Below, in pieces: positions 11,137-60,960 of a stretch of DNA of 64,000 nt. The first letter of the stretch is position 1; every line of letters begins with the position of its first letter. The notes below the pieces were generated by a model, which saw nothing but the letters and a program-made list of their open reading frames with translations, was not told the DNA's origin and did not search any database. A program made the translations under genes and the position numbers. Source of the stretch: Nymphaea colorata (taxonomy: Eukaryota > Streptophyta > Magnoliopsida > Nymphaeales > Nymphaeaceae); NCBI RefSeq assembly GCF_008831285.2, contig NC_045143.1, forward strand, positions 7,695,503 to 7,759,502. Reading direction: 5' to 3'.

Positions 11137-11139
11137 AAA

Positions 11140-15228: not shown

Positions 15229-15309
15229 AGTGAGTTTGCTTTTGTTTTTGTTTAGTTTTGTTTTAGAATGTGGCCACTGTTTGCGAGGCGAACTTGTACA
15301 TATGCTCAT

Positions 15310-16344: not shown

Positions 16345-17125
16345 CAAATCACCATCACAAAAACTAAAAAACCACAGAACGAATAACACAAAAACACCAT
16401 CAAGTGAGACGATAAGTGATCAAAGAAAGCCCTAACAGATGAAGAAAAAGAAGACAAACTCGTCATTACCAAAACTAAAAACAAAAGACAAAAACAAATG
16501 CAAACAAGCCACAAAGAACATGATATTTACAGAGGGATTGAGACATTTTAAAAAATTTTGATAATGTCGTGTACTTTCTAGTCTTTTTATTTTTTATGAT
16601 CTTCCTTTAACGTTTTTAAAACCCTTCTTTTCCATTTTATGAAGGGTATTTGGGTCATTACATACTCATATACATGCGTAGGAGTGCTTGCTAAAAATTT
16701 TACGTATTCTTCCTATCGATGAATGTTTGCTAGAAACTTAAGTACATTCGTAGAACGTTGTAGCGTAGTATTCCATGAATCTGACCAAAATTTCGAAGCA
16801 AAATAATTCACTAGTAAATTATCGAAAGGAATAACAGAATGAAGGGAAGTTCGGTTTCTACTTTTCGTTCAAACTTTGTTGAGGTGACCATACTTGGAAT
16901 TGTATAATGAAAAGATAAGGATTCGCTAGATACAAAAATTACCTACTTAACACATTAAAATATGGATTTAATGCTCAGAAACACATTCAAACATGGATTA
17001 TCATTCAATTTTTGTTGCTCAAGAGTAGCCACACATTCCAAAACAAAACTAAACAAAAGAAAACAAAAGTAAACTAACTTTTCTGGTTGATGGTTGGTAT
17101 TTTTCTCACTTGGACTGTCATTACA

Positions 17126-17722
17126 TTAGACTCTATGGTAATGACATGCTTCAACGCTTTCTTCTTCTTCATATTTTAAAAGTTTTGACCAATGGTGTAA
17201 AAAGGAGAAACACAACTCCACCATGAATCGATGCGTATGACCCCATGCTATCAAAAGAACCAACATAAGAGCGACTACAACGTTCAACAAGAGAGCACAA
17301 TTTGTCACTGTAAGTGAAACAACGCCGCCATTCTTGGGTATAGAATACATTGCCCTGAACATTGTGGCCACAACAACAAGAATCACGTAAGCCCTTTTCT
17401 GGGAAGCAAAGGACACAAGAAAAATGAGTACATGACACTGCAATGTCACTTTTTTGAGAACAATCCTGAACCACCGTTTCTGGGACCTAAATTGCTGATC
17501 GTTGAGAAACCCAACTGAAACATCCCAGACTGAAAAAAAGGGGAAATACACCGTAGCAAACAAACTCTTCAATCACACAAAAGAGCGCACAACACGAAAC
17601 CAAATCACCATCACGAAAACTAAAATACCAAAGAACGAATAACTCAAAAACACCATCAAGTGAGAGGATAAGTGATCGAAGAAAGCCCCAACAGACGTAG
17701 AAAAAGAAGACAAACTCGCCAT
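17126..17722 (-). pseudogene. Array unit 1 ORF, type A
   Basis: TGA splits the frame after VVRSFV. The remainder is open for 148 codons but has no ATG near its start. Private variants include SYSFFGILV and FLNDQQF, as expected of an edge copy. Confidence 0.6.
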
Positions 17723-18381
17723 TACCAAAACTAAAACCAAAAGACAACAAGAAATGCATACAAGCCACAAAGAACATGATATTTACAGAGGGATTGAGAC
17801 ATTTTAGAAATTTTTGATAATGTCGTGTACTTTCTAGTCCTTTTAATTTTTATGATCTCCCTTTAACGTTTTTAAAACCCTTCTTTTCCATTTTATGAAG
17901 GGTATTTGGGTCATTACATACTCATATACATGCGTAGGAGTGCTTGCTAAAAATTTTACGTATTCTTCCTATCGATGAATGTTTGCTAGAAACTTAAGTA
18001 CATTCGTAGAACGTTGTAGCGTAGTGTTCCATGAATCTGACCAAAATTTCGAAGCAAAATAATTCACTAGTAAATTATCGAAAGGAATAACAGAATGAAG
18101 GGAAGTTCGGTTTCTACTTTTCGTTCAAACTTTGTTGAGGTGACCATACTTGGAATTGTATAATGAAAAGATAAGGATTCGCCAGATACAAAAATTACCT
18201 ACTTAACACATTAAATTATGGATTTAATGCTCAGAAACACAATCAAACATGGATTATCATTCAATTTTTGTTGCTCAAGAGTAGCCACACATTCCAAAAC
18301 AAAACTAAACAAAAGAAAACAAAAGTAAACTAACTTTTCTGGTTGATGGTTGGTATTTTTCTCACTTGGACTGTCATTACA

Positions 18382-18978
18382 TTAGACTTCATGGTAATGG
18401 CATGCTTCAACGCTTTCTTCTTCTTCATATTTTAAAAGTTTTGACCAATGGTGTAAAAAGGAGAAACACAACTCCACCATGAATCGATGCGTATGACCCC
18501 ATGCTATCAAAAGAACCAACATAAGAGCGACTACAACTTTCAACAAGAGAGCACAATTTGTCACTGTAAGTGAAACAACGCCGCCATTCTTGGGTATAGA
18601 ATACATTGCCCTGAACACTGTGGCCACAACAACAAGAATCACGTAAGCCCTTTTCTGGGAAGCAAAGGACACAAGAAGAATGAGTACATGACACTGCAAT
18701 GTCACTTTTTTGAGAACAATCCTGAACCGCCGTTTCTGGGACCTAAATTGCTGATCGATGAGAAACCCAACTGAAACATCCCAGACTGAAAAAAATGGGA
18801 AATACACCGTAGCAAACAAACCCTTCAATCACACAAAAGAACGCACAACACGAAACCAAATCACCATCACAAAAACTAAAAAACCACATAACGAATAACA
18901 CAAAAACACCATCAAGTGAGACGATAGGTGATCAAAGAAAGCCCCAACAGACGTAGAAAAAGAAGACAAACTCGCCAT
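18382..18978 (-). pseudogene. Array unit 2 ORF, type A
   Basis: Reference type A copy: MASLSSFSTSVGAFFDHLSS then CYSLCGFLVFVMVIWFRVV, TGA, then LKGLFATVYFPFFSVWDVSV to ACHYHEV. One in-frame stop is its only break. Confidence 0.6.
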
Positions 18979-19637
18979 TACCAAAACTAAAACCAAAAGA
19001 CAACAAGAAATGCATACAAGCCACAAAGAACATGATATTTACAGAGGGATTGAGACATTTTAGAAATTTTTGATAATGTCGTGTACTTTCTAGTCTTTTT
19101 AATTTTTATGATCTCCCTTTAACGTTTTTAAAACCCTTCTTTTCCATTTTATGAAGGGTATTTGGGTCATTACATACTCATATACATGCGTAGGAGTGCT
19201 TGCTAAAAATTTTACGTATTCTTCCTATCGATGAATGTTTGCAAGAAACTTAAGTACATTCGTAGAACGTTGTAGCGTAGTGTTCCATGAATCTAACCAA
19301 AATTTCGAAGCAAAATAATTCACTAGTAAATTATCGAAAGGGATAACAGAATGAAGGGAAGTTCGGTTTCTACTTTTCGTTCAAACTTTGTTGAGGTGAC
19401 CATACTTGGAATTGTATAATGAAAAGATAAGGATTCGCCAGATACAAAAATTAACTACTTAACACATTAAATTATGGATTTAATGCTCAGAAACACAATC
19501 AAACATGGATTATCATTCAATTTTTGTTGCTCAAGAGTAGCCACACATTCCAAAACAAAACTAAACAAAAGAAAACAAAAGTAAACTAACTTTTCTGGTT
19601 GATGGTTGGTATTTTTCTCACTTGGACTGTCATTACA

Positions 19638-20234
19638 TTAGACTTCATGGTAATGGCATGCTTCAACGCTTTCTTCTTCTTCATATTTTAAAAGTTTTGA
19701 CCAATGGTGTAAAAAGGAAAAACACAACTCCACCATGAATCGATGCGTATGACCCCATGCTATCAAAAGAACCAACATAAGAGCGACTACAACTTTCAAC
19801 AAGAGAGCACAATTTGTCACTGTAAGTGAAACAACGCCGCCATTCTTGGGTATAGAATACATTGCCCTGAACACTGTGGCCACAACAACAAGAATCACGT
19901 AAGCCCTTTTCTGGGAAGCAAAGGACACAAGAAGAATGAGTACATGACACTGCAATGTCACTTTTTTGAGAACAATCCTGAACCGCCGTTTCTGGGACCT
20001 AAATTGCTGATCGATGAGAAACCCAACTGAAACATCCCAGACTAAAAAAAATGGGAAATACACCGTAGCAAACAAACCATTCAATCACACAAAAGAGCGC
20101 ACAACACGAAACCAAATCACCATCACAAAAACTAAAAAACCACATAACGAATAACACAAAAACACCATCAAGTGAGACGATAGGTGATCAAAGAAAGCCC
20201 CAACAGACGTAGAAAAAGAAGACAAACTCGCCAT
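19638..20234 (-). pseudogene. Array unit 3 ORF, type A
   Basis: Same TGA as unit 2. It differs by LNGLFATV after the stop and PFFLVWDV. Confidence 0.6.
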
Positions 20235-20893
20235 TACCAAAACTAAAACCAAAAGACAACAAGAAATGCATACAAGCCACAAAGAACATGATATTTACAG
20301 AGGGATTGAGACATTTTAGAAATTTTTGATAATGTCGTGTACTTTCTAGTCTTTTTAATTTTTATGATCTCCCTTTAACGTTTTTAAAACCCTTCTTTTC
20401 CATTTTATGAAGGGTATTTGGGTCATTACATACTCATATACATGCGTAGGAGTGCTTGCTAAAAATTTTACGTATTCTTCCTATCGATGAATGTTTGCAA
20501 GAAACTTAAGTACATTCGTAGAACGTTGTAGCGTAGTGTTCCATGAATCTAACCAAAATTTCGAAGCAAAATAATTCACTAGTAAATTATCGAAAGGAAT
20601 AACAGAATGAAGGGAAGTTCGGTTTCTACTTTTCGTTCAAACTTTGTTGAGGTGACCATACTTGGAATTGTATAATGAAAAGATAAGGATTCGCCAGATA
20701 CAAAAATTACCTACTTAACACATTAAATTATGGATTTAATGCTCAGAAACACAATCAAACATGGATTATCATTCAATTTTTGTTGCTCAAGAGTAGCCAC
20801 ACATTCCAAAACAAAACTAAACAAAAGAAAACAAAAGTAAACTAACTTTTCTGGTTGATGGTTGGTATTTTTCTCACTTGGACTGTCATTACA

Positions 20894-21490
20894 TTAGACT
20901 TCATGGTAATGGCATGCTTCAACGCTTTCTTCTTCTTCATATTTTAAAAGTTTTGACCAATGGTGTAAAAAGGAGAAACACAACTCCACCATGAATCGAT
21001 GCGTATGACCCCATGCTATCAAAAGAACCAACATAAGAGCGACTACAACTTTCAACAAGAGAGCACAATTTGTCACTGTAAGTGAAACAACGCCGCCATT
21101 CTTGGGTATAGAATACATTGCCCTGAACACTGTGGCCACAACAACAAGAATCACGTAAGCCCTTTTCTGGGAAGCAAAGGACACAAGAAGAATGAGTACA
21201 TGACACTGCAATGTCACTTTTTTGAGAACAATCCTGAACCGCCGTTTCTGGGACCTAAATTGCTGATCGATGAGAAACCCAACTGAAACATCCCAGACTG
21301 AAAAAAAGGGGAAATACACCGTAGCAAACAAACTCTTCAATCACACAAAAGAGCGCACAACACGAAACCAAATCACCATCACAAAAACTAAAAAACCACA
21401 TAACGAATAACACAAAAACACCATCAAGTGAGACGATAGGTGATCAAAGAAAGCCCCAACAGACGTAGAAAAAGAAGACAAACTCGCCAT
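20894..21490 (-). pseudogene. Array unit 4 ORF, type A
   Basis: Same TGA. It shares LKSLFATV with unit 1 and is otherwise like unit 2. Confidence 0.6.
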
Positions 21491-22174
21491 TACCAAAACT
21501 AAAACCAAAAGACAACAAGAAATGCATACAAGCCACAAAGAACATGATATTTACAGAGGGATTGAGACATTTTAGAAATTTTTGATAATGTCGTGTACTT
21601 TCTAGTCTTTTTAATTTTTATGATCTCCCTTTAACGTTTTTAAAACCCTTCTTTTCCATTTTATGAAGGGTATTTGGGTCATTACATACTCATATACATG
21701 CGTAGGAGTGCTTGCTAAAAATTTTACGTATTCTTCCTATCGATGAATGTTTGCAAGAAACTTAAGTACATTCGTAGAACGTTGTAGCGTAGTGTTCCAT
21801 GAATCTGACCAAAATTTCGAAGCAAAATAATTCACTAGTAAATTATCGAAAGGAATAACAGAATGAAGGGAAGTTCGGTTTCTACTTTTCGTTCAAACTT
21901 TGTTGAGGTGACCATACTTGGAATTGTATAATGAAAAGATAAGGATTCGCCAGATACAAAAATTACCTACTTAACACATTAAATTATGGATTTAATGCTC
22001 AGAAACACAATCAAACATGGATTATCATTCAATTTTTGTTGCTCAAGAGTAGCCACACATTCCAAAACAAAACTAAACAAAAGAAAACAAAAGTAAACTA
22101 ACTTTTCTGGTTGATGGTTGGTATTTTTCTCACTTGGACTGTCATTACATTAGACTCCATGGTAATGACATGCT

Positions 22175-22747
22175 TCAACGCTTTTTTTCTTCTTCATATT
22201 TTAAAAGTTTTGACCAATGGTGTAAAAAGGAGAAACACAACTCCACCATGAATCGATGCGTATGACCCCATGCTATCAAAAGAACCAACATAAGAGCGAC
22301 TACAACTTTCAACAAGAGAGCACAATTTGTCACTGTAAGTGAAACAACGCCGCCATTCTTGAGTATAGAATACATTGCCCTGAACACTGTGGCCACAACA
22401 ACAAGAATCATGTAAGCCTTTTTCTGGGAAGCAAAGGACACAAGAAGAATGAGTACATGACACTGCAATGTCACTTTGTTTAGAACAATCCTGAACCGCT
22501 GTTTCTGGGACCAAAATTGCTGAGCGATTAGAAACCCAACTGAAACATCCCGGACTGAAGAAATGGGGAAACACACCGTAGCAAACAAACCTTTCAATCG
22601 CACGAAATGGCGCACAACACGAAACCAAATCACCATCACAAAAACTAAAAAACCACAGAACGAATAACACAAAATCACCATCAAGTGAGACGATAGGTGA
22701 TCAAAGAAAGCCCCAACAGATGAAGAAAAAGAAGACAAACTCGCCAT
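22175..22747 (-). CDS. Array unit 5: intact hydrophobic protein, 190 aa
   Basis: The first type B copy, standing among type A copies. It is open from the ATG at 22747 and ends early as KYEEEKKR because of an extra T in the run near 22185. The CGA codon after PFV or HFV (VRHFVRLKGLF) is TGA in type A neighbours. Expression is unknown. Confidence 0.4.
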   Translation of the reverse strand: MASLSSFSSSVGAFFDHLSSHLMVILCYSFCGFLVFVMVIWFRVVRHFVRLKGLFATVCFPISSVRDVSVGFLIAQQFWSQKQRFRIVLNKVTLQCHVLILLVSFASQKKAYMILVVVATVFRAMYSILKNGGVVSLTVTNCALLLKVVVALMLVLLIAWGHTHRFMVELCFSFLHHWSKLLKYEEEKKR

Positions 22748-23396
22748 TACCAAAACTAAAAACAAAAGACAACAACAAATGCAAACAAGCCACAAAGAAC
22801 ATGATATTTACAGAGGGATTGAGACATTTTAAAAATTTTTGATAATGTCGTGTACTTTCTAGTGTTTTTATTTTTTGTGATCTTCCTTTAACGTTTTTAA
22901 AACCCTTCTTTTCCATTTTATGAAGGGTATTTGGGTCATTACATACTCATATACATGCGTAGGAGTGCTTGCTAAAAATTTTACGTATTCTTCCTATCGA
23001 TGAATGTTTGCTAGAAACTTAAGTACATTCGTAGAACGTTGTAGCGTAGTGTTCCATGAATCTGACCAAAATTTCGAAGCAAAATAATTCACTAGTAAAT
23101 TATCGAAAGGAATAACAGAATGAAGGGAAGTTCGGTTTCTACTTTTCGTTCAAACTTTGTTGAGGTGACCATACTTGGAATTGTATAATGAAAAGATAAG
23201 GATTCGCCAGATACAAAAATTACCTACTTAACACATTAAATTATGGATTTAATGCTCAGAAACACAATCAAACATGGATTATCATTCAATTTTTGTTGCT
23301 CAAGAGTAGCCACACATTCCAAAACAAAACTAAACAAAAGTAAACTAACTTTTCTGGTTGATGGTTGGTATTTTTCTCACTTGGACTGTCATTACA

Positions 23397-23993
23397 TTAG
23401 ACTTCATGGTAATGGCATGCTTCAACGCTTTCTTCTTCTTCATATTTTAAAAGTTTTGACCAATGGTGTAAAAAGGAGAAACACAACTCCACCATGAATC
23501 GATGCGTATGACCCCATGCTATCAAAAGAACCAACATAAGAGCGACTACAACTTTCAACAAGAGAGCACAATTTGTCACTGTAAGTGAAACAACGCCGCC
23601 ATTCTTGGGTAAAGAATACATTGCCCTGCACACTGTGGCCACAACAACAAGAATCACGTAAGCCCTTTTCTGGGAAGCAAAGGACACAAGAAGAATGAGT
23701 ACATGACACTGCAATGTCACTTTTTTGAGAACAATCCTGAACCGCCGTTTCTGGGACCTAAATTGCTGATCGATGAGAAACCCAACTGAAACATCCCAGA
23801 CTGAAAAAAATGGGAAATACACCGTAGCAAACAAACCCTTCAATCACACAAAAGAGCGCACAACACGAAACCAAATCACCATCACAAAAACTAAAAAACC
23901 ACATAACGAATAACACAAAAACACCATCAAGTGAGACGATAGGTGATCAAAGAAAGCCCCAACAGACGTAGAAAAAGAAGACAAACTCGCCAT
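23397..23993 (-). pseudogene. Array unit 6 ORF, type A frame on type B spacer
   Basis: Same TGA, with CRAMYSLPKN variants. The unit is 10-11 bp short because one repeat of the AAACAAAAGA tract near 23331 is missing. Confidence 0.6.
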
Positions 23994-24652
23994 TACCAAA
24001 ACTAAAAACAAAAGACAACAACAAATGCAAACAAGCCACAAAGAACATGATATTTACAGAGGGATTGAGACATTTTAAAAATTTTTGATAATGTCTTGTA
24101 CTTTCTAGTCTTTTTATTTTTTATGATCTTCCTTTAACGTTTTTAAGACCCTTCTTTTCCATTTTATGAAGGGTATTTGGGTCATTACATACTCATATAC
24201 ATGCGTAGGAGTGCTTGCTAAAAATTTTACGTATTCTTCCTATCGATGAATGTTTGCTAGAAACTTAAGTACATTCGTAGAACGTTGTAGCGTAGTGTTC
24301 CATGAATCTGACCAAAATTTCGAAGCAAAATCATTCACTAGTAAATTATCGAAAGGAATAACAGAATGAAGGGAAGTTCGGTTTCTACTTTTCGTTCAAA
24401 CTTTGTTGAGGTGACCATACTTGGAATTGTATAATGAAAAGATAAGGATTCGCCAGATAAAAAATTACCTACTTAACACATTAAATTATGGATTTAATGC
24501 TCAGAAACACAATCAAACATGGATTATCATTCAATTTTTGTTGCTCAAGAGTAGCCACACATTCCAAAACAAAACTAAACAAAAGAAAACAAAAGTAAAC
24601 TAACTTTTCTGTTTTGATGGTTGGTATTTTTCTCACTTGGACTGTCATTACA

Positions 24653-25248
24653 TTAGACTTCATGGTAATGGCATGCTTCAACGCTTTCTTCTTCTTCATA
24701 TTTTAAAAGTTTTGACCAATGGTGTAAAAAGGAGAAACACAACTCCACCATGAATCGATGCGTATGACCCCATGCTATCAAAAGAACCAACATAAGAGCG
24801 ACTACAACTTTCAACAAGAGAGCACAATTTGTCACTGTAAGTGAAACAACGCCGCCATTCTTGGGTATAGAATACATTGCCCTGCACACTGTGGCCACAA
24901 CAACAAGAATCACGTAAGCCCTTTTCTGGGAAGCAAAGGACACAAGAAGAATGAGTACATGACACTGCAATGTCACTTTTTTGAGAACAATCCTGAACCG
25001 CCGTTTCTGGGACCTAAATTGCTGATCGATGAGAAACCCAACTGAAACATCCCAGACTGAAAAAAATGGGAAATACACCGTAGCAAACAAACCTTCAATC
25101 ACACAAAAGAGCGCACAACACGAAACCAAATCACCATCACAAAAACTAAAAAACCACATAACGAATAACACAAAAACACCATCAAGTGAGACGATAGGTG
25201 ATCAAAGAAAGCCCCAACAGACGTAGAAAAAGAAGACAAACTCGCCAT
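24653..25248 (-). pseudogene. Array unit 7 ORF, type A, frameshifted
   Basis: A C is missing near 25092 (AAACCTTCAATC for AAACCCTTCAATC), which joins a shadow frame to the downstream part and bypasses the TGA in the wrong frame. Confidence 0.6.
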
Positions 25249-25907
25249 TACCAAAACTAAAAACAAAAGACAACAACAAATGCAAACAAGCCACAAAGAA
25301 CATGATATTTACAGAGGGATTGAGACATTTTAAAAATTTTTGATAATGTCTTGTACTTTCTAGTCTTTTTATTTTTTATGATCTTCCTTTAACGTTTTTA
25401 AGACCCTTCTTTTCCATTTTATGAAGGGTATTTGGGTCATTACATACTCATATACATGCGTAGGAGTGCTTGCTAAAAATTTTACGTATTCTTCCTATCG
25501 ATGAATGTTTGCTAGAAACTTAAGTACATTCGTAGAACGTTGTAGCGTAGTGTTCCATGAATCTGACCAAAATTTCGAAGCAAAATAATTCACTAGTAAA
25601 TTATCGAAAGGAATAACAGAATGAAGGGAAGTTCGGTTTCTACTTTTCGTTCAAACTTTGTTGAGGTGACCATACTTGGAATTGTATAATGAAAAGATAA
25701 GGATTCGCCAGATACAAAAATTACCTACTTAACACATTAAATTATGGATTTAATGCTCAGAAACACAATCAAACATGGATTATCATTCAATTTTTGTTGC
25801 TCAAGAGTAGCCACACATTCCAAAACAAAACTAAACAAAAGAAAACAAAAGTAAACTAACTTTTCTGTTTGATGGTTGGTATTTTTCTCACTTGGACTGT
25901 CATTACA

Positions 25908-26503
25908 TTAGACTTCATGGTAATGGCATGCTTCAACGCTTTCTTCTTCTTCATATTTTAAAAGTTTTGACCAATGGTGTAAAAAGGAGAAACACAACTC
26001 CACCATGAATCGATGCGTATGACCCCATGCTATCAAAAGAACCAACATAAGAGCGACTACAACTTTCAACAAGAGAGCACAATTTGTCACTGTAAGTGAA
26101 ACAACGCCGCCATTCTTGGGTATAGAATACATTGCCCTGAACACTGTGGCCACAACAACAAGAATCACGTAAGCCCTTTTCTGGGAAGCAAAGGACACAA
26201 GAAGAATGAGTACATGACACTGCAATGTCACTTTTTTGAGAACAATCCTGAACCGCCGTTTCTGGGACCTAAATTGCTGATCGATGAGAAACCCAACTGA
26301 AACATCCAGACTGAAAAAAATGGGAAATACACCGTAGCAAACAAACCCTTCAATCACACAAAAGAGCGCACAACACGAAACCAAATCACCATCACAAAAA
26401 CTAAAAAACCACATAACGAATAACACAAAAACACCATCAAGTGAGACGATAGGTGATCAAAGAAAGCCCCAACAGACGTAGAAAAAGAAGACAAACTCGC
26501 CAT
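25908..26503 (-). pseudogene. Array unit 8 ORF, type A, frameshifted
   Basis: TGA as in unit 2, plus a missing C near 26306 (CATCCAGACTG). Confidence 0.6.
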
Positions 26504-27160
26504 TACCAAAACTAAAAACAAAAGACAACAACAAATGCAAACAAGCCACAAAGAACATGATATTTACAGAGGGATTGAGACATTTTAAAAATTTTTGATA
26601 ATGTCGTGTACTTTCTAGTCTTTTTATTTTTATGATCTTCCTTTAACGTTTTTAAACCCTTCTTTTCCATTTTATGAAGGGTATTTGGGTCATTACATAC
26701 TCATATACATGCGTAGGAGTGCTTGCTAAAAATTTTACGTATTCTTCCTATCGATGAATGTTTGCTAGAAACTTAAGTACATTCGTAGAACGTTGTAGCG
26801 TAGTGTTCCATGAATCTGACCAAAATTTCGAAGCAAAATAATTCACTAGTAAATTATCGAAAGGAATAACAGAATGAAGGGAAGTTCGGTTTCTACTTTT
26901 CGTTCAAACTTTGTTGAGGTGACCATACTTGGAATTGTATAATGAAAAGATAAGGATTCGCCAGATACAAAAATTACCTACTTAACACATTAAATTATGG
27001 ATTTAATGCTCAGAAACACAATCAAACATGGATTATCATTCAATTTTTGTTGCTCAAGAGTAGCCACACATTCCAAAACAAAACTAAACAAAAGAAAACA
27101 AAAGTAAACTAACTTTTCTGGTTGATGGTTGGTATTTTTCTCACTTGGACTGTCATTACA

Positions 27161-27755
27161 TTAGACTTCATGGTAATGGCATGCTTCAACGCTTTCTTCT
27201 TCTTCATATTTTAAAAGTTTTGACCAATGGTGTAAAAAGGAGAAACACAACTCCACCATGAATCGATGCGTATGACCCCATGCTATCAAAAGAACCAACA
27301 TAAGAGCGACTACAACTTTCAACAAGAGAGCACAATTTGTCACTGTAAGTGAAACAACGCCGCCATTCTTGGGTATAGAATACATTGCCCTGAACACTGT
27401 GGCCACAACAACAAGAATCACGTAAGCCCTTTTCTGGGAAGCAAAGGACACAAGAAGAATGAGTACATGACACTGCAATGTCACTTTTTTAGAACAATCC
27501 TGAACCGCCGTTTCTGGGACCTAAATTGCTGATCGATGAGAAACCCAACTGAAACATCCCAGACTGAAAAAAAGGGGAAATACACCGTAGCAAACAAACC
27601 TTCAATCACACAAAAGAGCGCACAACACGAAACCAAATCACCATCACAAAAACTAAAAAACCACATAACGAATAACACAAAAACACCATCAAGTGAGACG
27701 ATAGGTGATCAAAGAAAGCCCCAACAGACGTAGAAAAAGAAGACAAACTCGCCAT
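27161..27755 (-). pseudogene. Array unit 9 ORF, type A, frameshifted
   Basis: Deletions near 27487 (TTTTTTAGAAC) and 27600. Short deletions around 27783-27790 place the upstream frame MTQIPFIKWKRR... in phase with MASLSS, giving a 112-codon shadow fusion. Confidence 0.55.
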
Positions 27756-28411
27756 TACCAAAACTAAAACCAAAAGACAACAAAAATGCAACAAGCCACA
27801 AAGAACATGATATTTACAGAGGGATTGAGACATTTTAAAAATTTTTGATAATGTCGTGTACTTTCTAGTCTTTTTATTTTTATGATCTTCCTTTAACGTT
27901 TTTAAAACCCTTCTTTTCCATTTTATGAAGGGTATTTGGGTCATTACATACTCATATACATGCGTAGGAGTGCTTGCTAAAAATTTTACGTATTCTTCCT
28001 ATCGATGAATGTTTGCTAGAAACTTAAGTACATTCGTAGAACGTTGTAGCGTAGTGTTCCATGAATCTGACCAAAATTTCGAAGCAAAATAATTCACTAG
28101 TAAATTATCGAAAGGAATAACAGAATGAAGGGAAGTTCGGTTTCTACTTTTCGTTCAAACTTTGTTGAGGTGACCATACTTGGAATTGTATAATGAAAAG
28201 ATAAGGATTCGCCAGATACAAAAATTACCTACTTAACACATTAAATTATGGATTTAATGCTCAGAAACACAATCAAACATGGATTATCATTCAATTTTTG
28301 TTGCTCAAGAGTAGCCACACATTCCAAAACAAAACTAAACAAAAGAAAACAAAAGTAAACTAACTTTTCTGGTTGATGGTTGGTATTTTTCTCACTTGGA
28401 CTGTCATTACA

Positions 28412-32171: not shown

Positions 32172-32753
32172 TCATGGTAATGCATGCTTCAACGCTTTTT
32201 CTTCTTCATATTTTAAAAGTTTTGACCAATGGTGTAAAAAGGAGAAACACAACTCCACCATGAATCGATGCGTATGACCCCATGCTATCAAAAGAACCAA
32301 CATAAGAGCGACTACAACTTTCAACAAGAGAGCACAATTTGTCACTGTAAGTGAAACAACGCCGCCATTCTTGGGTATAGAATACATTGCCCTGAACACT
32401 GTGGCCACAACAACAAGAATCACGTAAGCCCTTTTCTGGGAAGCAAAGGACACAAGAAGAATGAGTACATGACACTGCAATGTCACTTTTTTAGAACAAT
32501 CCTGAACCGCGTTTCTGGGACCAAATTGCTGATCGATGAGAAACCCAACTGAAACATCCCAGACTGAAAAAATGGGGAAAACACCGTAGCAAACAAACCT
32601 TTCAATCACACGAAAGGCGCACAACACGAAACCAAATCACCATCACAAAAACTAAAAAACCACAAACGAATAACACAAAAACACCATCAAGTGAGACGAT
32701 AGGTGATCAAAGAAAGCCCCAACAGATGAAGAAAAAGAAGACAAACTCGCCAT
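32172..32753 (-). pseudogene. Array unit 13 ORF, A/B mosaic, several deletions
   Basis: Shortest group of units (1246 bp). Single bases are missing near 32178, 32508, 32522, 32615 and 32664. Type A-like DQQF is combined with the B-like ACACGAAAGG block. Confidence 0.55.
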
Positions 32754-33406
32754 TACCAAAACTAAAAACAAAAGACAACAACAAATGCAAACAAGCCACA
32801 AAGAACATGATATTTACAGAGGGATTGAGACATTTTAAAAATTTTTGATAATGTCGTGTACTTTCTAGTCTTTTTATTTTTTATGATCTTCCTTTAACGT
32901 TTTAAAACCCTTCTTTTCCATTTTATGAAGGGTATTTGGGTCATTACATACTCATATACATGCGTAGGAGTGCTTGCTAAAAATTTTACGTATTCTTCCT
33001 ATCGATGAATGTTTGCTAGAAACTTAAGTACATTCGTAGAACGTTGTAGCGTAGTGTTCCATGAATCTGACCAAAATTTCGAAGCAAAATAATTCACTAG
33101 TAAATTATCGAAAGGAATAACAGAATGAAGGGAAGTTCGGTTTCTACTTTTCGTTCAAACTTTGTTGAGGTGACCATACTTGGAATTGTATAATGAAAAG
33201 ATAAGGATTCGCCAGATACAAAAATTACCTACTTAACACATTAAAATATGGATTTAATGCTCAGAAACACAATCAAACATGGATTATCATTCAATTTTTG
33301 TTGCTCAAGAGTAGCCACACATTCCAAAACAAAACTAAACAAAAGAAAACAAAAGTAAACTAACTTTTCTGGTTGATGGTTGGTATTTTTCTCACTTGGA
33401 CTGTCA

Positions 33407-34005
33407 TTACATTAGACTCATGGTAATGACATGCTTCAACGCTTTTTCTTCTTCATATTTTAAAAGTTTTGACCAATGGTGTAAAAAGGAGAAACACAAC
33501 TCCACCATGAATCGATGCGTATGACCCCATGCTATCAAAAGAACCAACATAAGAGCGACTACAACTTTCAACAAGAGAGCACAATTTGTCACTGTAAGTG
33601 AAACAACGCCGCCATTCTTGGGTATAGAATACATTGCCCTGAACACTGTGGCCACAACAACAAGAATCACGTAAGCCTTTTCTGGGAAGCAAAGGACACA
33701 AGAAGAATGAGTACATGACACTGCAATGTCACTTTGTTTAGAACAATCCTGAACCGCTGTTTCTGGGACCAAAATTGCTGAGCGATTAGAAACCCAACTG
33801 AAACATCCCGGACTGAAGAAATGGGGAAACACACCGTAGCAAACAAACCTTTCAATCGCACGAAAGGGCGCACAACACGAAACCAAATCACCATCACAAA
33901 AACTAAAAAACCACAGAACGAATAACACAAAAACACCATCAAGTGAGACGATAGGTGATCAAAGAAAGCCCCAACAGATGAAGAAAAAGAAGACAAACTC
34001 GCCAT
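33407..34005 (-). pseudogene. Array unit 14 ORF, type B, frameshifted
   Basis: Open to ASQKR, then shifted by the same missing T (near 33676) as in units 10 and 16. Confidence 0.6.
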
Positions 34006-34612
34006 TACCAAAACTAAAAACAAAAGACAACAACAAATGCAAACAAGCCACAAAGAACATGATATTTACAGAGGGATTGAGACATTTTAAAAATTTTTGA
34101 TAATGTCGTGTACTTTCTAGTCTTTTTATTTTTTATGATCTTCCTTTAACGTTTTTAAAACCCTTCTTTTCCATTTTATGAAGGGTATTTGGGTCATTAC
34201 ATACTCATATACATGCGTAGGAGTGCTTGCTAAAAATTTTACGTATTCTTCCTATCGATGAATGTTTGCTAGAAACTTAAGTACATTCGTAGAACGTTGT
34301 AGCGTAGTGTTCCATGAATCTGACCAAAATTTCGAAGCAAAATAATTCACTAGTAAATTATCGAAAGGAATAACAGAATGAAGGGAAGTTCGGTTTCTAC
34401 TTTTCGTTCAAACTTTGTTGAGGTGACCATACTTGGAATTGTATAATGAAAAGATAAGGATTCGCCAGATACAAAAATTACCTACTTAACACATTAAAAT
34501 ATGGATTTAATGCTCAGAAACACAATCAAACATGGATTATCATTCAATTTTTGTTGCTCAAGAGTAGCCACACATTCCAAAACAAAACTAAACAAAAGAA
34601 AACAAAAGTAAA

Positions 34613-35258
34613 CTAACTTTTCTGGTTGATGGTTGGTATTTTTCTCACTTGGACTGTCATTACATTAGACTCATGGTAATGACATGCTTCAACGCTTTCT
34701 TCTTCTTCATATTTTAAAAGTTTTGACCAATGGTGTAAAAAGGAGAAACACAACTCCACCATGAATCGATGCGTATGACCCCATGCTATCAAAAGAACCA
34801 ACATAAGAGCGACTACAACTTTCAACAAGAGAGCACAATTTGTCACTGTAAGTGAAACAACGCCGCCATTCTTGGGTATAGAAACATTGCCCTGAACACT
34901 GTGGCCACAACAACAAGAATCACGTAAGCCTTTTTCTGGGAAGCAAAGGACACAAGAAGAATGAGTACATGACACTGCAATGTCACTTTGTTTAGAACAA
35001 TCCTGAACCGCTGTTTCTGGGACCAAAATTGCTGAGCGATTAGAAACCCAACTGAAACATCCCGGACTGAAGAAATGGGGAAACACACCGTAGCAAACAA
35101 ACCTTTCAATCGCACGAAAGGGCGCACAACACGAAACCAAATCACCATCACAAAAACTAAAAACCACAGAACGAATAACACAAAAACACCATCAAGTGAG
35201 ACGATAGGTGATCAAAGAAAGCCCCAACAGATGAAGAAAAAGAAGACAAACTCGCCAT
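34613..35258 (-). pseudogene. Array unit 15 ORF, type B, frameshifted
   Basis: Bases are missing near 34883 (TATAGAAACATTG) and 35160. The C-terminus reads through to NQKS. Confidence 0.6.
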
Positions 35259-35916
35259 TACCAAAACTAAAAACAAAAGACAACAACAAATGCAAACAAG
35301 CCACAAAGAACATGATATTTACAGAGGGATTGAGACATTTTAAAAATTTTTGATAATGTCGTGTACTTTCTAGTCTTTTTATTTTTTATGATCTTCCTTT
35401 AACGTTTTTAAAACCCTTCTTTTCCATTTTATGAAGGGTATTTGGGTCATTACATACTCATATACATGCGTAGGAGTGCTTGCTAAAAATTTTACGTATT
35501 CTTCCTATCGATGAATGTTTGCTAGAAACTTAAGTACATTCGTAGAACGTTGTAGCGTAGTGTTCCATGAATCTGACCAAAATTTCGAAGCAAAATAATT
35601 CACTAGTAAATTATCGAAAGGAATAACAGAATGAAGGGAAGTTCGGTTTCTACTTTTCGTTCAAACTTTGTTGAGGTGACCATACTTGGAATTGTATAAT
35701 GAAAAGATAAGGATTCGCCAGATACAAAAATTACCTACTTAACACATTAAATATGGATTTAATGCTCAGAAACACAATCAAACATGGATTATCATTCAAT
35801 TTTTGTTGCTCAAGAGTAGCCACACATTCCAAAACAAAACTAAACAAAAGAAAACAAAAGTAAACTAACTTTTCTGGTTGATGGTTGGTATTTTTCTCAC
35901 TTGGACTGTCATTACA

Positions 35917-36509
35917 TTAGACTTCATGGTAATGACATGCTTCAACGCTTTCTTCTTCTTCATATTTTAAAAGTTTTGACCAATGGTGTAAAAAGGAGAA
36001 CACAACTCCACCATGAATCGATGCGTATGACCCCATGCTATCAAAAGAACCAACATAAGAGCGACTACAACTTTCAACAAGAGAGCACAATTGTCACTGT
36101 AAGTGAAACAACGCCGCCATTCTTGGGTATAGAAACATTGCCCTGAACACTGTGGCCACAACAACAAGAATCACGTAAGCCTTTTCTGGGAAGCAAAGGA
36201 CACAAGAAGAATGAGTACATGACACTGCAATGTCACTTTGTTTAGAACAATCCTGAACCGCTGTTTCTGGGACCAAAATTGCTGAGCGATTAGAAACCCA
36301 ACTGAAACATCCCGGACTGAAGAAATGGGGAAACACACCGTAGCAAACAAACCTTTCAATCGCACGAAAGGGCGCACAACACGAAACCAAATCACCATCA
36401 CAAAAACTAAAAAACCACAGAACGAATAACACAAAAACACCATCAAGTGAGACGATAGGTGATCAAAGAAAGCCCCAACAGATGAAGAAAAAGAAGACAA
36501 ACTCGCCAT
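35917..36509 (-). pseudogene. Array unit 16 ORF, type B, frameshifted
   Basis: Several one-base losses near 35999, 36091, 36134 and 36182 break the frame in its second half. Confidence 0.6.
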
Positions 36510-37164
36510 TACCAAAACTAAAAACAAAAGACAACAACAAATGCAAACAAGCCACAAAGAACATGATATTTACAGAGGGATTGAGACATTTTAAAAATTT
36601 TTGATAATGTCGTGTACTTTCTAGTCTTTTTATTTTTTATGATCTTCCTTTAACGTTTTTAAAACCCTTCTTTTCCATTTTATGAAGGTATTTGGGTCAT
36701 TACATACTCATATACATGCGTAGGATGCTTGCTAAAAATTTTAGTATTCTTCCTATCGATGAATGTTTGCTAGAAACTTAAGTACATTCGTAGAACGTTG
36801 TAGCGTAGTGTTCCATGAATCTGACCAAAATTTCGAAGCAAAAAATTCACTAGTAAATTATCGAAAGGAATAACAGAATGAAGGGAAGTTCGGTCTCTAC
36901 TTTTCGTTCAAACTTTGTTGAGGTGACCATACTTGAAATTGTATAATGAAAAGATAAGGATTCGCCAGATACAAAAATTACCTACTTAACACATTAAATT
37001 ATGGATTTAATGCTCAGAAACACAATCAAACATGGATTATCATTCAATTTTGTTGCTCAAGAGTAGCCACACATTCCAAAACAAAACTAAACAAAAGAAA
37101 ACAAAAGTAAACTAACTTTTCTGTTTTGATGGTTGGTATTTTTCTCACTTGGACTGTCATTACA

Positions 37165-37758
37165 TTAGACTTCATGGTAATGGCATGCTTCAACGCTTTC
37201 TTCTTCTTCATATTTTAAAAGTTTTGACCAATGGTGTAAAAAGGAGAAACACAACTCCACCATGAATCGATGCGTATGACCCCATGCTATCAAAAGAACC
37301 AACATAAGATCGACTACAACTTTCAACAAGAGAGCACAATTTGTCACTGTAAGTGAAACAACGCCGCCATTCTTGGGTATAGAATACATTGCCCTGAACA
37401 CTGTGGCCACAACAACAAGAATCACGTAAGCCCTTTTCTGGGAAGCAAAGCACACAAGAAGAATGAGTACATGACACTGCAATGTCACTTTGTTAGAACA
37501 ATCCTGAACCGCTATTTCTGGGACCAAAATTGCTGAGCGATTAGAAACCCAACTGAAACATCCCGGACTGAAGAAATGGGAAACACACCGTAGCAAACAA
37601 ACCTTTCAATCGCACGAAAGGGCGCACAACACGAAACCAAATCACCATCACAAAAACTAAAAAACCACATAACGAATAACACAAAAACACCATCAAGTGA
37701 GACATAGGTGATCAAAGAAAGCCCCAACAGATGAAGAAAAAGAAGACAAACTCGCCAT
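37165..37758 (-). pseudogene. Array unit 17 ORF, B/A mosaic
   Basis: First half is type B, second half and following spacer are type A (ACHYHEV, and AACCAAAAGACAACAAGAAA at 37770). Deletions near 37493 and 37580 shift the frame. Confidence 0.6.
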
Positions 37759-38365
37759 TACCAAAACTAAAACCAAAAGACAACAAGAAATGCGTACAAG
37801 CCACAAAGAACATGATATTTACAGAGGGATTGAGACATTTTAGAAATTTTTGATAATGTCGTGTACTTTCTAGTCTTTTTAATTTTTATGATCTCCCTTT
37901 AACGTTTTTAAAACCCTTCTTTTCCATTTTATGAAGGGTATTTGGGTCATTACACACTCATATACATGCGTAGGAGTGCTTGCTAAAAATTTTACGTATT
38001 CTTCCTATCGATGAATGTTTGCTAGAAACTTAAGTACATTCATAGAACGTTGTAGCGTAGTGTTCCATGAATCTGACCAAAATTTCGAAGCAAAATAATT
38101 CACTAATAAATTATCGAAAGGAATAACAGAATGAAGGGAAGTTCGGTTTCAACTTTTCGTTCAAACTTTGTTGAGGTGACCATACTTGGAATTGTATAAT
38201 GAAAAGATAAAGATTCGCCAGATACAAAAATTACCTACTTAACACATTAAAATATGGATTTAATGCTCAGAAACACAATCAAACATGGATTATCATTCAA
38301 TTTTTGTTACTCAAGAGTAGCCACACATTCCAAAACAAAACTAAACAAAAGAAAACAAAAGTAAA

Positions 38366-39013
38366 CTAACTTTTCTGGTTGATGGTTGGTATTTTTCTCA
38401 CTTGGACTGTCATTACATTAGACTCCATGGTAATGACATGCTTCAACGCTTTTTCTTCTTCATATTTTAAAAGTTTTGACCAATGGTGTAAAAAGGAGAA
38501 ACACAACTTCACCATGAATCGATGCGTATGACCCCATGCTATCAAAAGAACCAACATAAGAGTGACTACAACTTTCAACAAGAGAGCACAATATCTCACT
38601 GTAAGTGAAACAACGCCGCCATTCTTGGGTATAGAAGACATTGCCCTGAACACTGTGGCCACAACAACAAGAATCACGTAAGCCCTTTTCTGGGAAGCAA
38701 ATGACACAAGAAGAATGAGTACATGACACTGCAATGTCACTTTGTTTAGAACAATCCTGAACCGCTGTTTCTGGGACCAAAATTGCGGATCGATGAGAAA
38801 CCCAACTGAAACATCCCGGACTGAAGAAATGGGGAAACACACCGTAGCAAACAAACCTTTCAATCGCACGAAAGGGCGCACAACACGAAACCAAATCACC
38901 ATCACAAAAACTAAAAAACCACAGAACGAATAACACAAAAACACCATCAAGTGAGACGATATGTGATCAAAGAAAGCCCCAACAGATGAAGAAAAAGAAG
39001 ACAAACTCGCCAT
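38366..39013 (-). CDS. Array unit 18: intact hydrophobic protein, 215 aa
   Basis: Longest open copy of the array frame, type B. From the ATG at 39013 (MASLSSFSSSVGAFFDHISS) it runs 215 codons. Hydrophobic stretches lie at residues 21-43 (VFLCYSFCGFLVFVMVIWF), weakly at 52-74, at 95-125 (VLILLVSF and AYVILVVVATVF) and at 141-161 (ALLLKVVVTLMLVLLIAW). The last 40 residues are charged (KYEEEKAL...). A single-base change in the TTTTTC run near 38455 shifts the end, so the protein reads past the stop used by most copies, adding VMTVQVRKIPTINQKS. No signal peptide or known domain is recognised. The frame choice is supported by the homologue at 14561. Whether it is expressed is unknown; it may be a satellite frame left open by chance. 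Confidence 0.45.
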   Translation of the reverse strand: MASLSSFSSSVGAFFDHISSHLMVFLCYSFCGFLVFVMVIWFRVVRPFVRLKGLFATVCFPISSVRDVSVGFLIDPQFWSQKQRFRIVLNKVTLQCHVLILLVSFASQKRAYVILVVVATVFRAMSSIPKNGGVVSLTVRYCALLLKVVVTLMLVLLIAWGHTHRFMVKLCFSFLHHWSKLLKYEEEKALKHVITMESNVMTVQVRKIPTINQKS

Positions 39014-39668
39014 TACCAAAACTAAAAACAAAAGACAACAACAAATGCAAACAAGCCACAAAGAACATGATATTTACAAAGGGATTGAGACATTTTAAAA
39101 ATTTTTGATAATGTCTTGTACTTTCTAGTCTTTTTATTTTTTATGATCTTCCTTTAACGTTTTTAAAACCCTTCTTTTCCATTTTATGAAGGGTATTTGG
39201 GTCATTACATACTTATATACTTGCGTAGGAGTGCTTGCTAAAAATTTTACGTATTCTTCCTATCGATGAATGTTTGCAAGAAATTTAAGTACATTCGTAG
39301 AACGTTGTAGCGTAGTGTTCCATGAATCTAACCAAAATTTCGAAGCAAAATAATTCACTAGTAAATTATCGAAAGGAATAACAGAATGAAGGGAAGTTCG
39401 GTTTCTACTTTTCGTTCAAACTTTGTTGAGGTGACCATACTTGGAATTGTATAATGAAAAGATAAGGATTCGCCAGATACAAAAATTACCTACTTAACAC
39501 ATTAAAATATGGATTTAATGCTCAGAAACACAATCAAACATGGATTATCATTCAATTTTGTTGCTCAAGAGTAGCCACACATTCCAAAACAAAACTAAAC
39601 AAAAGAAAACAAAAGTAAACTAACTTTTCTGGTTGGTTGGTATTTTTCTCACTTGGACTGTCATTACA

Positions 39669-40265
39669 TTAGACTCCATGGTAATGACATGCTTCAACGC
39701 TTTTTTCTTCTTCATATTTTAAAAGTTTTGACCAATGGTGTAAAAAGGAGAAACACAACTCCACCATGAATCGATGCGTATGACCCCATGCTATCAAAAG
39801 AACCAACATAAGAGCGACTACAACTTTCAACAAGAGAGCACAATTTGTCACTGTAAGTGAAACAACGCCGCCATTCTTGGGTATAGAATACAATGCCCTG
39901 AACACTGTGGCTACAACAACAAGAATCACGTAAGCCCTTTTTTGGGAAGCAAAGGACACAAGAAGAATGAGTACATGACACTGCAATGTCACTTTGTTTA
40001 GAACAATCCTGAACCGCTGTTTCTGGGACCAAAATTGCTAAGCGATTAGAAACCCAACTGAAACATCCCGGACTGAAGAAATGGGAAAACACACCGTAGC
40101 AAACAAACCTTTCAATCGCACGAAAGGGCGCACAACACGAAACCAAATCACCATCACAAAAACTAAAAAACCACAGAACGAATAACACAAAAACACCATC
40201 AAGTGAGACGATAGGTGATCAAAGAAAACCCCAACAGATGAAGAAAAAGAAAACAAACTCGCCAT
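39669..40265 (-). pseudogene. Array unit 19 ORF, type B, nonsense
   Basis: TAG replaces CAG after VGFLIA (near 40038). The rest is open. Confidence 0.65.
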
Positions 40266-40924
40266 TACCAAAACTAAAAACAAAAGACAACAACAAATGC
40301 AAACAAGCCACAAAGAACATGATATTTACAGAGGGATTGAGACATTTTAAAAATTTTTGATAATGTCGTGTACTTTCTAGTCTTTTTATTTTTTATGATC
40401 TTCCTTTAACGTTTTTAAAACTCTTCTTTTCCATTTTATGAAGGGTATTTGGGTTATTAAATACTCATATACATGCGTAGGAGTGCTTGCTAAAAATTTT
40501 ACGTATTCTTCCTATCGATGAATGTTTGCTAGAAACTTAAGTACATTCGTAGAACGTTGTAGCGTAGTGTTCCATGAATCTGACCAAAATTTCGAAGCAA
40601 AATAATTCACAAGTAAATTATCGAAAGGAATAACAGAATGAAGGGAAATTCGGTTTCTACTTTTCGTTCAAACTTTGTTGAGGTGACCATACTTGGAATT
40701 GTATAATGAAAAGATAAAGATTCGCCAGATACAAAAATTACCTACTTAACACATTAAAATATGGATTTAATGCTCAGAAACACAATCAAACATGGATTAT
40801 CATTCAATTTTTGTTGCTCAAGAGTAGCCACACATTCCAAAACAAAACTAAACAAAAGAAAACAAAAGTAAACTAACTTTTCTGGTTGATGGTTGGTATT
40901 TTTCTCACTTGGACTGTCATTACA

Positions 40925-41521
40925 TTAGACTTCATGGTAATGACATGCTTCAACGCTTTCTTCTTCTTCATATTTTAAAAGTTTTGACCAATGGTGTAAA
41001 AAGGAGATACACAACTCCACCATGAATCGATGCGTATGACCCCATGCTATCAAAAGAACCAACATAAGAGTGACTACAACTTTCAACAAGAGAGCACAAT
41101 ATCTCACTGTAAGTGAAACAACGCCGCCATTCTTGGGTATAGAAGACATTGCCCTGAACACAGTGGCCACAAGAACAAGAATCACGTAAGCCTTTTTCTG
41201 GGAAGCAAAGGACACAAGAAGAATGAGTACATGACACTGCAATGTCACTTTGTTTAGAACAATCCTGAACCGCTGTTTCTGGGACCAAAATTGCTGAGCA
41301 ATTAGAAACCCAACTGAAACATCCCGGACTGAAGAAATGGGGAAACACACCGTAGCAAACAAACCTTTCAATCGCACGAAAGGGCGCACAACACGAAACC
41401 AAATCACCATCACAAAAACTAAAAAACCACAGAACTAATAACACAAAAACACCATCAAGTGAGACGATAGGTGATCAAAGAAAGCCCCAACAGATGAAGA
41501 AAAAGAAGACAAACTCGCCAT
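40925..41521 (-). pseudogene. Array unit 20 ORF, type B, nonsense
   Basis: TAG replaces TCG in the CYSFC motif (41435-41437), shared with unit 22. It is otherwise open to ACHYHEV. Confidence 0.65.
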
Positions 41522-42180
41522 TACCAAAACTAAAAACAAAAGACAACAACAAATGCAAACAAGCCACAAAGAACATGACATTTACAGAGGGATTGAGACA
41601 TTTTAAAAATTTTTGATAATGTCCTGTACTTTCTAGTCTTTTTATTTTTTATGATCTTCCTTTAACGTTTTTAAAACCCTTCTTTTCCATTTTATGAAGG
41701 GTATTTGGGTCATTACATACTCATATACATGCGTAGGAGTGCTTGCTAAAAATTTTACGTATTCTTCCTATCGATGAATGTTTGCTAGAAACTTAAGTAC
41801 ATTCGTAGAACGTTGTAGCGTAGTGTTCCATGAATCTGACCAAAATTTCGAAGCAAAATAATTCACTAGTAAATTATCGAAAGGAATAACAGAATGAAGG
41901 GAAGTTCGGTTTCTACTTTTCGTTCAAACTTTGTTGAGGTGACCATACTTGGAATTGTATAATGAAAAGATAAAGATTCGCCAGATACAAAAATTACCTA
42001 CTTAACACATCAAAATATGGATTTAATGCTCAGAAACACAATCAAACATGAATTATCATTCAATTTTTGTTGCTCAAGAGTAGCCACACATTCCAAAACA
42101 AAACTAAACAAAAGAAAACAAAAGTAAACTAACTTTTCTGGTTGATGGTTGGTATTTTTCTCACTTGGACTGTCATTACA

Positions 42181-42777
42181 TTAGACTCCATGGTAATGAC
42201 ATGCTTCAACGCTTTTTTCTTCTTCATATTTTAAAAGTTTTGACCAATGGTGTAAAAAGGAGAAACACAACTCCACCATGAATCGATGCGTATGACCCCT
42301 TGCTATCAAAAGAACCAACATAAGAGTGACTACAACTTTCAACAAGAGAGCACAATATCTCACTGTAAGTGAAACAACGCCGCCATTCTTGGGTATAGAA
42401 GACATTGCCCTGAACACAGTGACCACAAGAACAAGAATCACGTAAGCCTTTTTCTGGGAAGCAAAGGACACAAGAAGAATGAGTACATGACACTGCAATG
42501 TCACTTTGTTTAGAACAATCCTGAACCGCTGTTTCTGGGACCAAAATTGCTGAGCGATTAGAAACCCAACTGAAACATCCCGGACTAAAGAAATGGGGAA
42601 ACACACCGTAGCAAACAAACCTTTCAATCGCACGAAAGGGCGCACAACACGAAACCAAATCACCATCACAAAAACTAAAAAACCACAGAACGAATAACAC
42701 AAAAACACCATCAAGTGAGACGATAGGTGATCAAAGAAAGCCCTAACAGATGAAGAAAAAGAAGACAAACTCGCCAT
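42181..42777 (-). CDS. Array unit 21: intact hydrophobic protein, 198 aa
   Basis: Type B copy open from the ATG at 42777 to the TAA at 42181, ending KSVEACHYHGV. This is probably the unshifted C-terminus, since type A copies end in the same place (ACHYHEV). Private differences from unit 18 include RAFFDHLSS near the N-terminus and ARGHTH after the last hydrophobic segment. The neighbouring units 20 and 22 carry a TAG that this copy lacks. Confidence 0.45.
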   Translation of the reverse strand: MASLSSFSSSVRAFFDHLSSHLMVFLCYSFCGFLVFVMVIWFRVVRPFVRLKGLFATVCFPISLVRDVSVGFLIAQQFWSQKQRFRIVLNKVTLQCHVLILLVSFASQKKAYVILVLVVTVFRAMSSIPKNGGVVSLTVRYCALLLKVVVTLMLVLLIARGHTHRFMVELCFSFLHHWSKLLKYEEEKSVEACHYHGV

Positions 42778-43436
42778 TACCAAAACTAAAAACAAAAGAC
42801 AACAACAAATTCAAACAAGCCACAAAGAACATGATATTTACAGAGGGATTGAGACATTTTAAAAATTTTTGATAATGTCGTGTACTTTCTAGTCTTTTTA
42901 TTTTTTATGATCTTCCTTTAAGGTTTTTAAAACCCTTCTTTTCTATTTTATGAAGGGTATTTGGGTCATTACATACTCATATACATGCGTAGGAGTGCTT
43001 GCTAAAAATTTTACGTATTCTTCCTATCGATGAATGTTTGCTAGAAACTTAAGTACATTCGTAGAACGTTGTAGCGTAGTATTCCATGAATCTGACCAAA
43101 ATTTCGAAGCAAAATAATTCACTAGTAAATTATCGAAAGGAATAACAGAATGAAGGGAAGTTCGGTTTCTACTTTTCGTTCAAACTTTGTTGAGGTGACC
43201 ATACTTGGAATTGTATAATGAAAAGATAAGGATTCGCCAGATACAAAAATTACCTACTTAACACATTAAAATATGGATTTAATGCTCAGAAACACAATCA
43301 AACATGGATTATCATTCAATTTTTGTTGCTCAAGAGTAGCCACACATTCCAAAACAAAACTAAACAAAAGAAAACAAAAGTAAACTAACTTTTCTGGTTG
43401 ATGGTTGGTATTTTTCTCACTTGGACTGTCATTACA

Positions 43437-44033
43437 TTAGACTTCATGGTCATGACATGCTTCAACGCTTTCTTCTTCTTCCTATTTTAAAAGTTTTAAC
43501 CAATGGTGTAAAAAGGAGAAACACAACTCCACCATGAATCGATGCGTATGACCCCATGCTATCAAAAGAACCAACATAAGAGTGACTACAACTTTCAACA
43601 AGAGAGCACAATATCTCACTGTAAGTGAAACAACGCCGCCATTCTTGGGTATAGAAGACATTGCCCTGAACACAGTGGCCACAAGAACAAGAATCACGTA
43701 AGCCTTTTTCTGGGAAGCAAAGGACACAAGAAGAATGAGTACATGACACTACAATGTCACTTTGTTTAGAACAATCCTGAACCGCTGTTTCTGGGACCAA
43801 AATTGCTGAGCAATTAGAAACCCAACTGAAACATCCCGGACTGAAGAAATGGGGAAACACACCGTAGCAAACAAACCTTTCAATCGCACGAAAGGGCGCA
43901 CAACACGAAACCAAATCACCATCACTAAAACTAAAAAACCACAGAACTAATAACACAAAAACACCATCAAGTGAGACGATAGGTGATCAAAGAAAGCCCC
44001 AACAGATGAAAAAAAAGAAGACAAACTCGCCAT
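43437..44033 (-). pseudogene. Array unit 22 ORF, type B, nonsense (last unit)
   Basis: Same TAG as unit 20 (43947-43949), plus private changes near the array edge such as CCTATTTT at 43481. The spacer following it is cut off at 44069. Confidence 0.65.
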
Positions 44034-44069
44034 TACCAAAACTAAAACCAAAAGACAACAACAAATGCA

Positions 44070-52294: not shown

Positions 52295-60960
<8,666 letters not shown>

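Follow-up and report, generated by a model that had tools for sequence, protein, structure and literature searches.

The D4Z4/DUX4 macrosatellite of primates is composed of a 3.3-kb unit encoding a homeobox protein, and the Executor-type resistance proteins of plants are hydrophobic orphans of small size and limited distribution. Repeat arrays formed when a gene is amplified in tandem are a known kind. As described for Stellate and Suppressor of Stellate of Drosophila melanogaster, a protein-coding gene has been amplified in tandem, independently, at separate X and Y loci (PMC7874207). In plants, clusters of nucleotide-binding leucine-rich repeat (NLR) genes are reported as expanded in the genome description of the water lily Nymphaea colorata (PMC7015852). 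The stretch considered here (the window) consists of 64,000 nucleotides of N. colorata DNA (contig NC_045143.1, positions 7,695,503 to 7,759,502 of the forward strand) and contains a tandem array of a kilobase-scale unit with a long open reading frame (ORF). With a probability of roughly three in four, this array is a gene-derived macrosatellite, mostly decaying, of which a few copies are still intact. The features on which the following relies, named by unit copy, are:

16345..44071, minus strand: tandem array of a unit of ~1256 bp in 23 pieces (u00 partial, u01-u21 full, u22 partial), delimited by BLASTN and cut into units
42181..42777, minus strand: unit ORF of copy u21, running from the conserved ATG through 198 codons to a stop; the only copy of this array (C6) with a complete 198-codon frame as assembled
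22175..22747, minus strand: unit ORF of copy u05, 190 codons, the last of which are altered by a one-base insertion
38366..39013, minus strand: unit ORF of copy u18, 215 codons, with a C-terminus altered by a one-base deletion
30864..31508, minus strand: reading of copy u12, 214 codons, which crosses several one-base deletions and is partly in another frame

When one unit is compared with the window by BLASTN, a continuous head-to-tail array is outlined at 16345-44071, the pieces of which are 95-100% identical to the query unit. With 21 full units and two terminal pieces (u00, 451 bp; u22, 965 bp), it amounts to 22.1 unit lengths, which bears out the ~22 head-to-tail copies of a 1.25-kb unit described in a first-pass annotation of the same DNA. 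The period is ~1,256 bp (unit spacing 1245-1257), the left and right ends are not in the same unit phase (unit positions 561 and 720, respectively, by BLASTN), and the kilobase scale and head-to-tail order of the units are those of a macrosatellite. The unit ORF lies on the minus strand of the window. The same annotation had seen a shared minus-strand frame, open from ATG for 190-215 codons in at least three copies, and such frames are indeed present in u05, u12, u18 and u21 (190, 214, 215 and 198 codons, respectively), the 214- and 215-codon readings being produced by frame-shifting one-base deletions. A length of 198 codons is also that retained by the ORF in a second array, which lies on another assembled sequence (C2, the window being on C6) and to which we return below.

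One rival reading is a classical non-coding satellite, the long frame of which would be a by-product of a T-rich strand. The coding strand is indeed 40% T in the ORF region, some copies have 158 open codons in a second frame on the same strand, and the substitution pattern among copies, discussed later, is neutral. Against this, dinucleotide shuffling produced no open frame as long as that of the unit, neither in 500 shuffles of the whole unit nor in 1000 of the ORF region, and 0/1000 was the outcome for each of three sequences. Furthermore, the repeat was found at two loci of the assembly only (counts being lower bounds), and a relative with ~72% DNA identity keeps the frame, with gaps in threes and no stops. 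On the shuffles and on this frame-keeping relative, the non-coding satellite with a chance frame was rejected as very improbable.

The relative in question is a diverged single-copy sequence at C2:3646260-3646817, ~100 kb from the C2 array. Over 186 codons it retains the start and the frame without any stop, at an amino-acid identity of 41% to u21. Aligned at the DNA level with a C2 copy, the single-copy relative has gaps of 12, 30, 6 and 9 bases within the ORF, and one 10-base gap in the C2 copy is found at the non-homologous C-terminal end. The likeness to the array unit fades near both ends of the ORF, identity per 100 bp being 60-77% in a stretch that takes in the ORF and the 100 bp preceding it, and 37-59% outside that stretch. 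When substitutions alone were simulated from the C2 ORF, none of 2000 pairs was free of stops at the observed distance of 0.43, and 0.45% were at a distance of 0.30. The single-copy relative is, thus, read as a real gene kept in frame while its protein changed rapidly, and its kept start, kept frame and freedom from stops point to a protein gene as the probable ancestor of the unit, too, orphan as far as the searches reached. The coding ancestor is strongly inferred from the kept frame and start together with the shuffles; a ratio of nonsynonymous to synonymous substitution rates (dN/dS, omega) near 1 adds no support to it.

The genome searched comprised 407.8 Mb in 783 contigs, and the match counts are lower bounds. 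With 447 bp of the ORF as query, at least 34 matches were found, of which 22 are on C6, 11 make up the array at C2:3753151-3766251 and a diverged one is at C2:3646474. Over these 447 bp the C2 array copies are 89-92% identical to those of C6. The C2 array can be aligned across nearly the whole unit (C2:3753089-3766297), and its usual period is 1236. Four of its ten full-length ORFs are open for 198 codons from ATG, two are open with ATT in place of the start, three contain a stop and one is frame-shifted, while an eleventh copy is truncated. In a tree, the C2 copies form a clade of their own (support 1.000), and the two arrays are separate. Protein searches of the genome gave at least 50 matches for the array ORF and at least 37 for the single-copy relative, with members of the family solely at the C6 and C2 loci. 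The high copy number of a classical satellite was not found, there being 33 copies in two arrays, a number that the assembly may undercount.

As assembled, a stop or a gap falls within the aligned frame in 20 of the 22 ORF-spanning copies of the window (u01-u22), which had escaped the first-pass annotation. Neither is found at consensus frame positions in the other two, u05 and u21, the former with its one-base insertion near the end. Of the 22 copies on C6, one carries a complete open ORF and two carry one whose C-terminus is altered. In-frame stops occur in 14/22 copies: at codon 50 in ten, at codons 83, 76 and 29 in u17, u19 and u20, respectively, and at three positions in u22. A CGA-to-TGA change at codon 50 is among the stops that have accumulated. 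If one-base gaps are ignored, 8/22 copies contain no in-frame stop.

Compared with its consensus, the window array has 83 ORF variants, which comprise 57 nonsynonymous, 20 synonymous and 6 stop changes, and 58.5, 21.2 and 3.2, respectively, are expected under random change with transitions weighted double. By pairwise codon maximum likelihood (ML), omega is 0.70-0.88 between the arrays and 0.85-1.03 between the arrays and the single-copy relative, and none of the six pairs (0.70-1.03) is distinguishable from 1 (largest 2 delta lnL 1.39). The copies of the window look neutral or nearly so. Values by the Nei-Gojobori method (NG86) spread from 0.42 to 2.01 among pairs, the maximum involving u05 with its frame-shifted last codons; for the NG86 and bootstrap comparison the C6 consensus was built from eight gap-free copies, with u05 excluded. 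The ratio of nonsynonymous to synonymous differences per site (pN/pS) between C6 and C2 is 0.73 overall, 0.52 in codons 1-90 and 1.11 in codons 91-198 (the pN/pS and the ORF and flank divergence tables include nine C2 copies; that at 3765655, cut past the array end, is excluded). The first-pass annotation had named dN/dS near 1 between copies as one half of what would speak against its proposal, and such a ratio is what is observed, both in the 57:20:6 partition set against expectation and in the omega values. This neutral pattern, however, speaks against a function of the copies and not against the origin of the unit from a gene.

These data also bear on whether the array is an active tandem gene family, several copies of which would be expressed under selection for the dosage of a membrane protein, and in which most broken copies would be passengers or due to faulty assembly. 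Such a family would account for the four of ten full-length C2 copies that are open from ATG and the two more that differ by an ATG-to-ATT change, for the eight C6 copies devoid of stops when one-base gaps are disregarded, and for pN/pS of 0.42-0.65 in the first 90 codons in five comparisons. In the same five comparisons, however, codons 91-198 give 0.95-1.19, overall omega is not different from 1, and in-frame stops interrupt 14/22 C6 and 3/10 C2 copies, besides the frame-shifted C2 copy. An active family is, on balance, unlikely. The annotation had left the choice between a young amplified gene cluster and a satellite born from a gene; the diverged, frame-preserving relative and the lack of detectable selection on the copies make the second the better-supported option.

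How many copies are truly broken depends on the quality of the assembly in the interior of the array:

24323..40594, no strand: interior copies u07-u19, the site of all 53 one-base deletions, which are probably consensus errors in good part

All 53 one-base deletions are found in these 13 copies and none in the 10 outer pieces (u00-u06 and u20-u22). Copy u16 has eight such deletions and two substitutions with respect to the consensus, a ratio unlikely for natural mutation. The published assembly, as described in PMC7015852, was built from PacBio RSII reads polished with Arrow and Pilon, a route that fits uncorrected errors inside a repeat. Given the confinement of the deletions to the interior, many of the frameshifts there may be assembly errors. 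If they are consensus errors, counts of intact genes in arrays of this type are too low, and the array illustrates how assembly errors inside repeats can hide intact copies.

Satellite DNA often arises from tandem repeats of retrotransposons, as stated in PMC7004042, and an origin of the array from a mobile element was considered in view of a short stretch upstream of the ORF:

21555..21705, minus strand: stretch of ~150 bp, 65-215 bp upstream of the ATG (example copy u04), 77-79% identical to five other places on C4, C6, C12 and C16

The search with this stretch scored 40 of 91 candidates. Relatives at these five places are what a mobile element might leave; the ORF, however, contains no transposon domain (Pfam; NCBIfam, which is a prokaryote library), whole-piece matches are confined to the two arrays and ORF relatives to the same two loci. 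As neither a transposition protein nor dispersed full-length copies were found, derivation from a transposon was rejected and is scarcely credible. Elsewhere in the window, fragments at 49788-51085, which gave no Pfam or NCBIfam match, resemble, by eye, a LINE-type retrotransposon. Near the C2 array, at C2:3778624-3782898, an open frame of 1425 codons resembles a Copia-type polyprotein by eye.

The encoded protein had been called unrecognised, and so it is within the searches made. In Pfam no family reached the cut-off for the readings of the unit ORF or its relatives, no NCBIfam family matched the unit ORF, no relative was found in the PDB up to E 1, and none was found among 5.8 billion proteins, plants included, with queries consisting of one copy and of an alignment of six sequences. 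N. colorata's own annotation may be missing from that collection: no Nymphaea-named protein is among the 120 matches listed from it for CDC5, the product of a neighbouring gene. For the C6 readings 30864-31562 and 25908-26426, AmoC (E 0.007-0.008) and VERL (E 0.03-0.04) remained below the curated Pfam cut-offs, as did DUF7648 for one of these readings and u21 (E 0.15 and 0.056), and all three were taken as hydrophobicity; none of them appeared in the Pfam results for u05, u18, the inverted relative to the left of the array, the C2 copy or the single-copy relative. An rDNA spacer, which would have rRNA genes within it or alongside, was likewise rejected, the window giving no Rfam match at gathering score. 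The description of the protein as membrane-like has its support in the hydropathy of u21, with strong peaks at residues 22-40 and 141-159 and weaker ones between them, around 85-130; the AlphaFold model, all-helical, is too uncertain for interpretation (pLDDT 43, pTM 0.25). The product may be a multi-pass membrane protein. Among the open-licence papers listed by the literature searches, none reports the water-lily array.

The left side of the array contains further features that link it to C2:

14480..15283, plus strand: inverted, diverged relative of the unit (best BLASTN stretch 63% identical in DNA, with E 2e-14; 30% protein identity over 100 amino acids; ORF 14621-15088)
15910..16323, no strand: left flank adjoining the array, 75% identical to C2:3741402-3741809
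8600..9112, minus strand: relic of a TIR-NB-ARC-LRR gene, recognised by its match to the C2 region and by pieces of the NB-ARC and TIR domains
9407..11818, plus strand: stretches with 67-88% DNA identity to the resistance-gene region of C2, including an LRR piece (10930-11064); 11160-11818 may in part be a dispersed repeat

The C2 array sits inside a TIR-NB-ARC-LRR cluster, TIR, NB-ARC, winged-helix and LRR domains being found in 7/7 of the ORFs scanned, which were picked from a longer list for their resemblance to resistance genes. Four pieces of the 8.6-11.8 kb region of the window gave no Pfam match up to E 0.01. That the array lies between ordinary genes, as first proposed, needs amending, in that resistance-gene relics lie on its left side, as does the inverted element related to the unit. 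The latter element has relatives of its own at C2:3640559-3644319, in three tandem copies that are 91-93% identical to one another; with a spacing of ~1.49 kb, they make up a third small tandem array (C2:3640165-3644319). Also in the window are a gene for a CDC5-like splicing factor (57730-59502, minus strand; Pfam Myb_Cef, E 2e-57), for which the closest among the matches listed is from Victoria cruziana (95-96% protein identity), and an 82-bp direct repeat in 2.1 exact copies at 6535-6704.

Several observations weigh against a gene-derived, decaying macrosatellite or parts of that view. The relatives of the 14480-15283 type have frame breaks and no third-position excess, and may be pseudogenes. 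Comparing copies that are free of stops is biased toward preserved frames, and a rearrangement could have removed the flanks that the single-copy relative once had. Between this relative and the arrays omega is near 1 (ML 0.85-1.03; NG86 0.82-1.07, with bootstrap ranges that include 1), which leaves the preservation of the frame and the absence of stops as the grounds for a coding ancestor. Divergence between the arrays is higher in the ORF (8.7-11.5%) than in the flanks (6.4-6.7%), unlike what purifying selection would leave; the excess arises partly at CpG sites, which are hot (14/66 transition columns sit on 38 CpG sites), methylation being the inferred cause. Finally, 14 of the 33 columns with one-base deletions are common to two to four copies, a pattern as compatible with inheritance as with systematic errors, and some deletions may not be errors.

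The history of the macrosatellite was probably as follows. The ancestor would be a small, fast-evolving gene of the water-lily lineage, probably for a multi-pass membrane protein, in or beside a TIR-NB-ARC-LRR cluster. A block of 1.24-1.26 kb, made of the ORF, an upstream region with a dispersed-repeat fragment and a downstream region, would have multiplied head to tail, with unequal crossing-over as the likeliest mechanism, and a segmental duplication between C2 and C6 would account for the two loci, each array having presumably been homogenised separately since then. Under weak or absent selection on single copies, stop codons would have accumulated, and the few copies with an open ORF (four of ten full-length ones on C2 and, among the 22 on C6 as assembled, one that is complete besides two whose C-terminus is altered) could still make the protein. 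The survival of a single-copy relative ~100 kb from one of the two arrays makes the path from gene to satellite traceable in one plant genome.

The water-lily arrays resemble Stellate and Suppressor of Stellate in that a gene has been amplified into tandem repeats at separate loci. Stellate has a casein-kinase-2 beta-subunit-like origin, testis expression unless repressed, and repression by piRNA from the second locus; unlike Stellate, both water-lily arrays retain some open ORFs, and no sequence relation between the two systems is known. With D4Z4/DUX4 they share, by description only, a kilobase-scale tandem unit with an ORF. As in plant NLR clusters, within one of which the C2 array sits, relics of whose genes are present in the window, resistance genes are close by; unlike NLR genes, the repeated ORF has no TIR, NB-ARC or LRR match in Pfam. 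The likeness to Executor-type proteins, compared by description alone, is a lead only, in that both are small hydrophobic orphans. It is improbable, yet worth stating, that the two loci function as a system, either as an orphan, fast-evolving membrane protein tied to the resistance cluster and dosed by array length (e.g. an immune protein of the executor or guard type) or as a Stellate-like pair in which small RNA from one of the arrays would silence the other. With respect to these known systems, what is new is the orphan family, its link to a resistance-gene cluster and the series from gene to satellite within a single genome, so that an orphan protein family associated with such a cluster is added from an early-diverging flowering plant.

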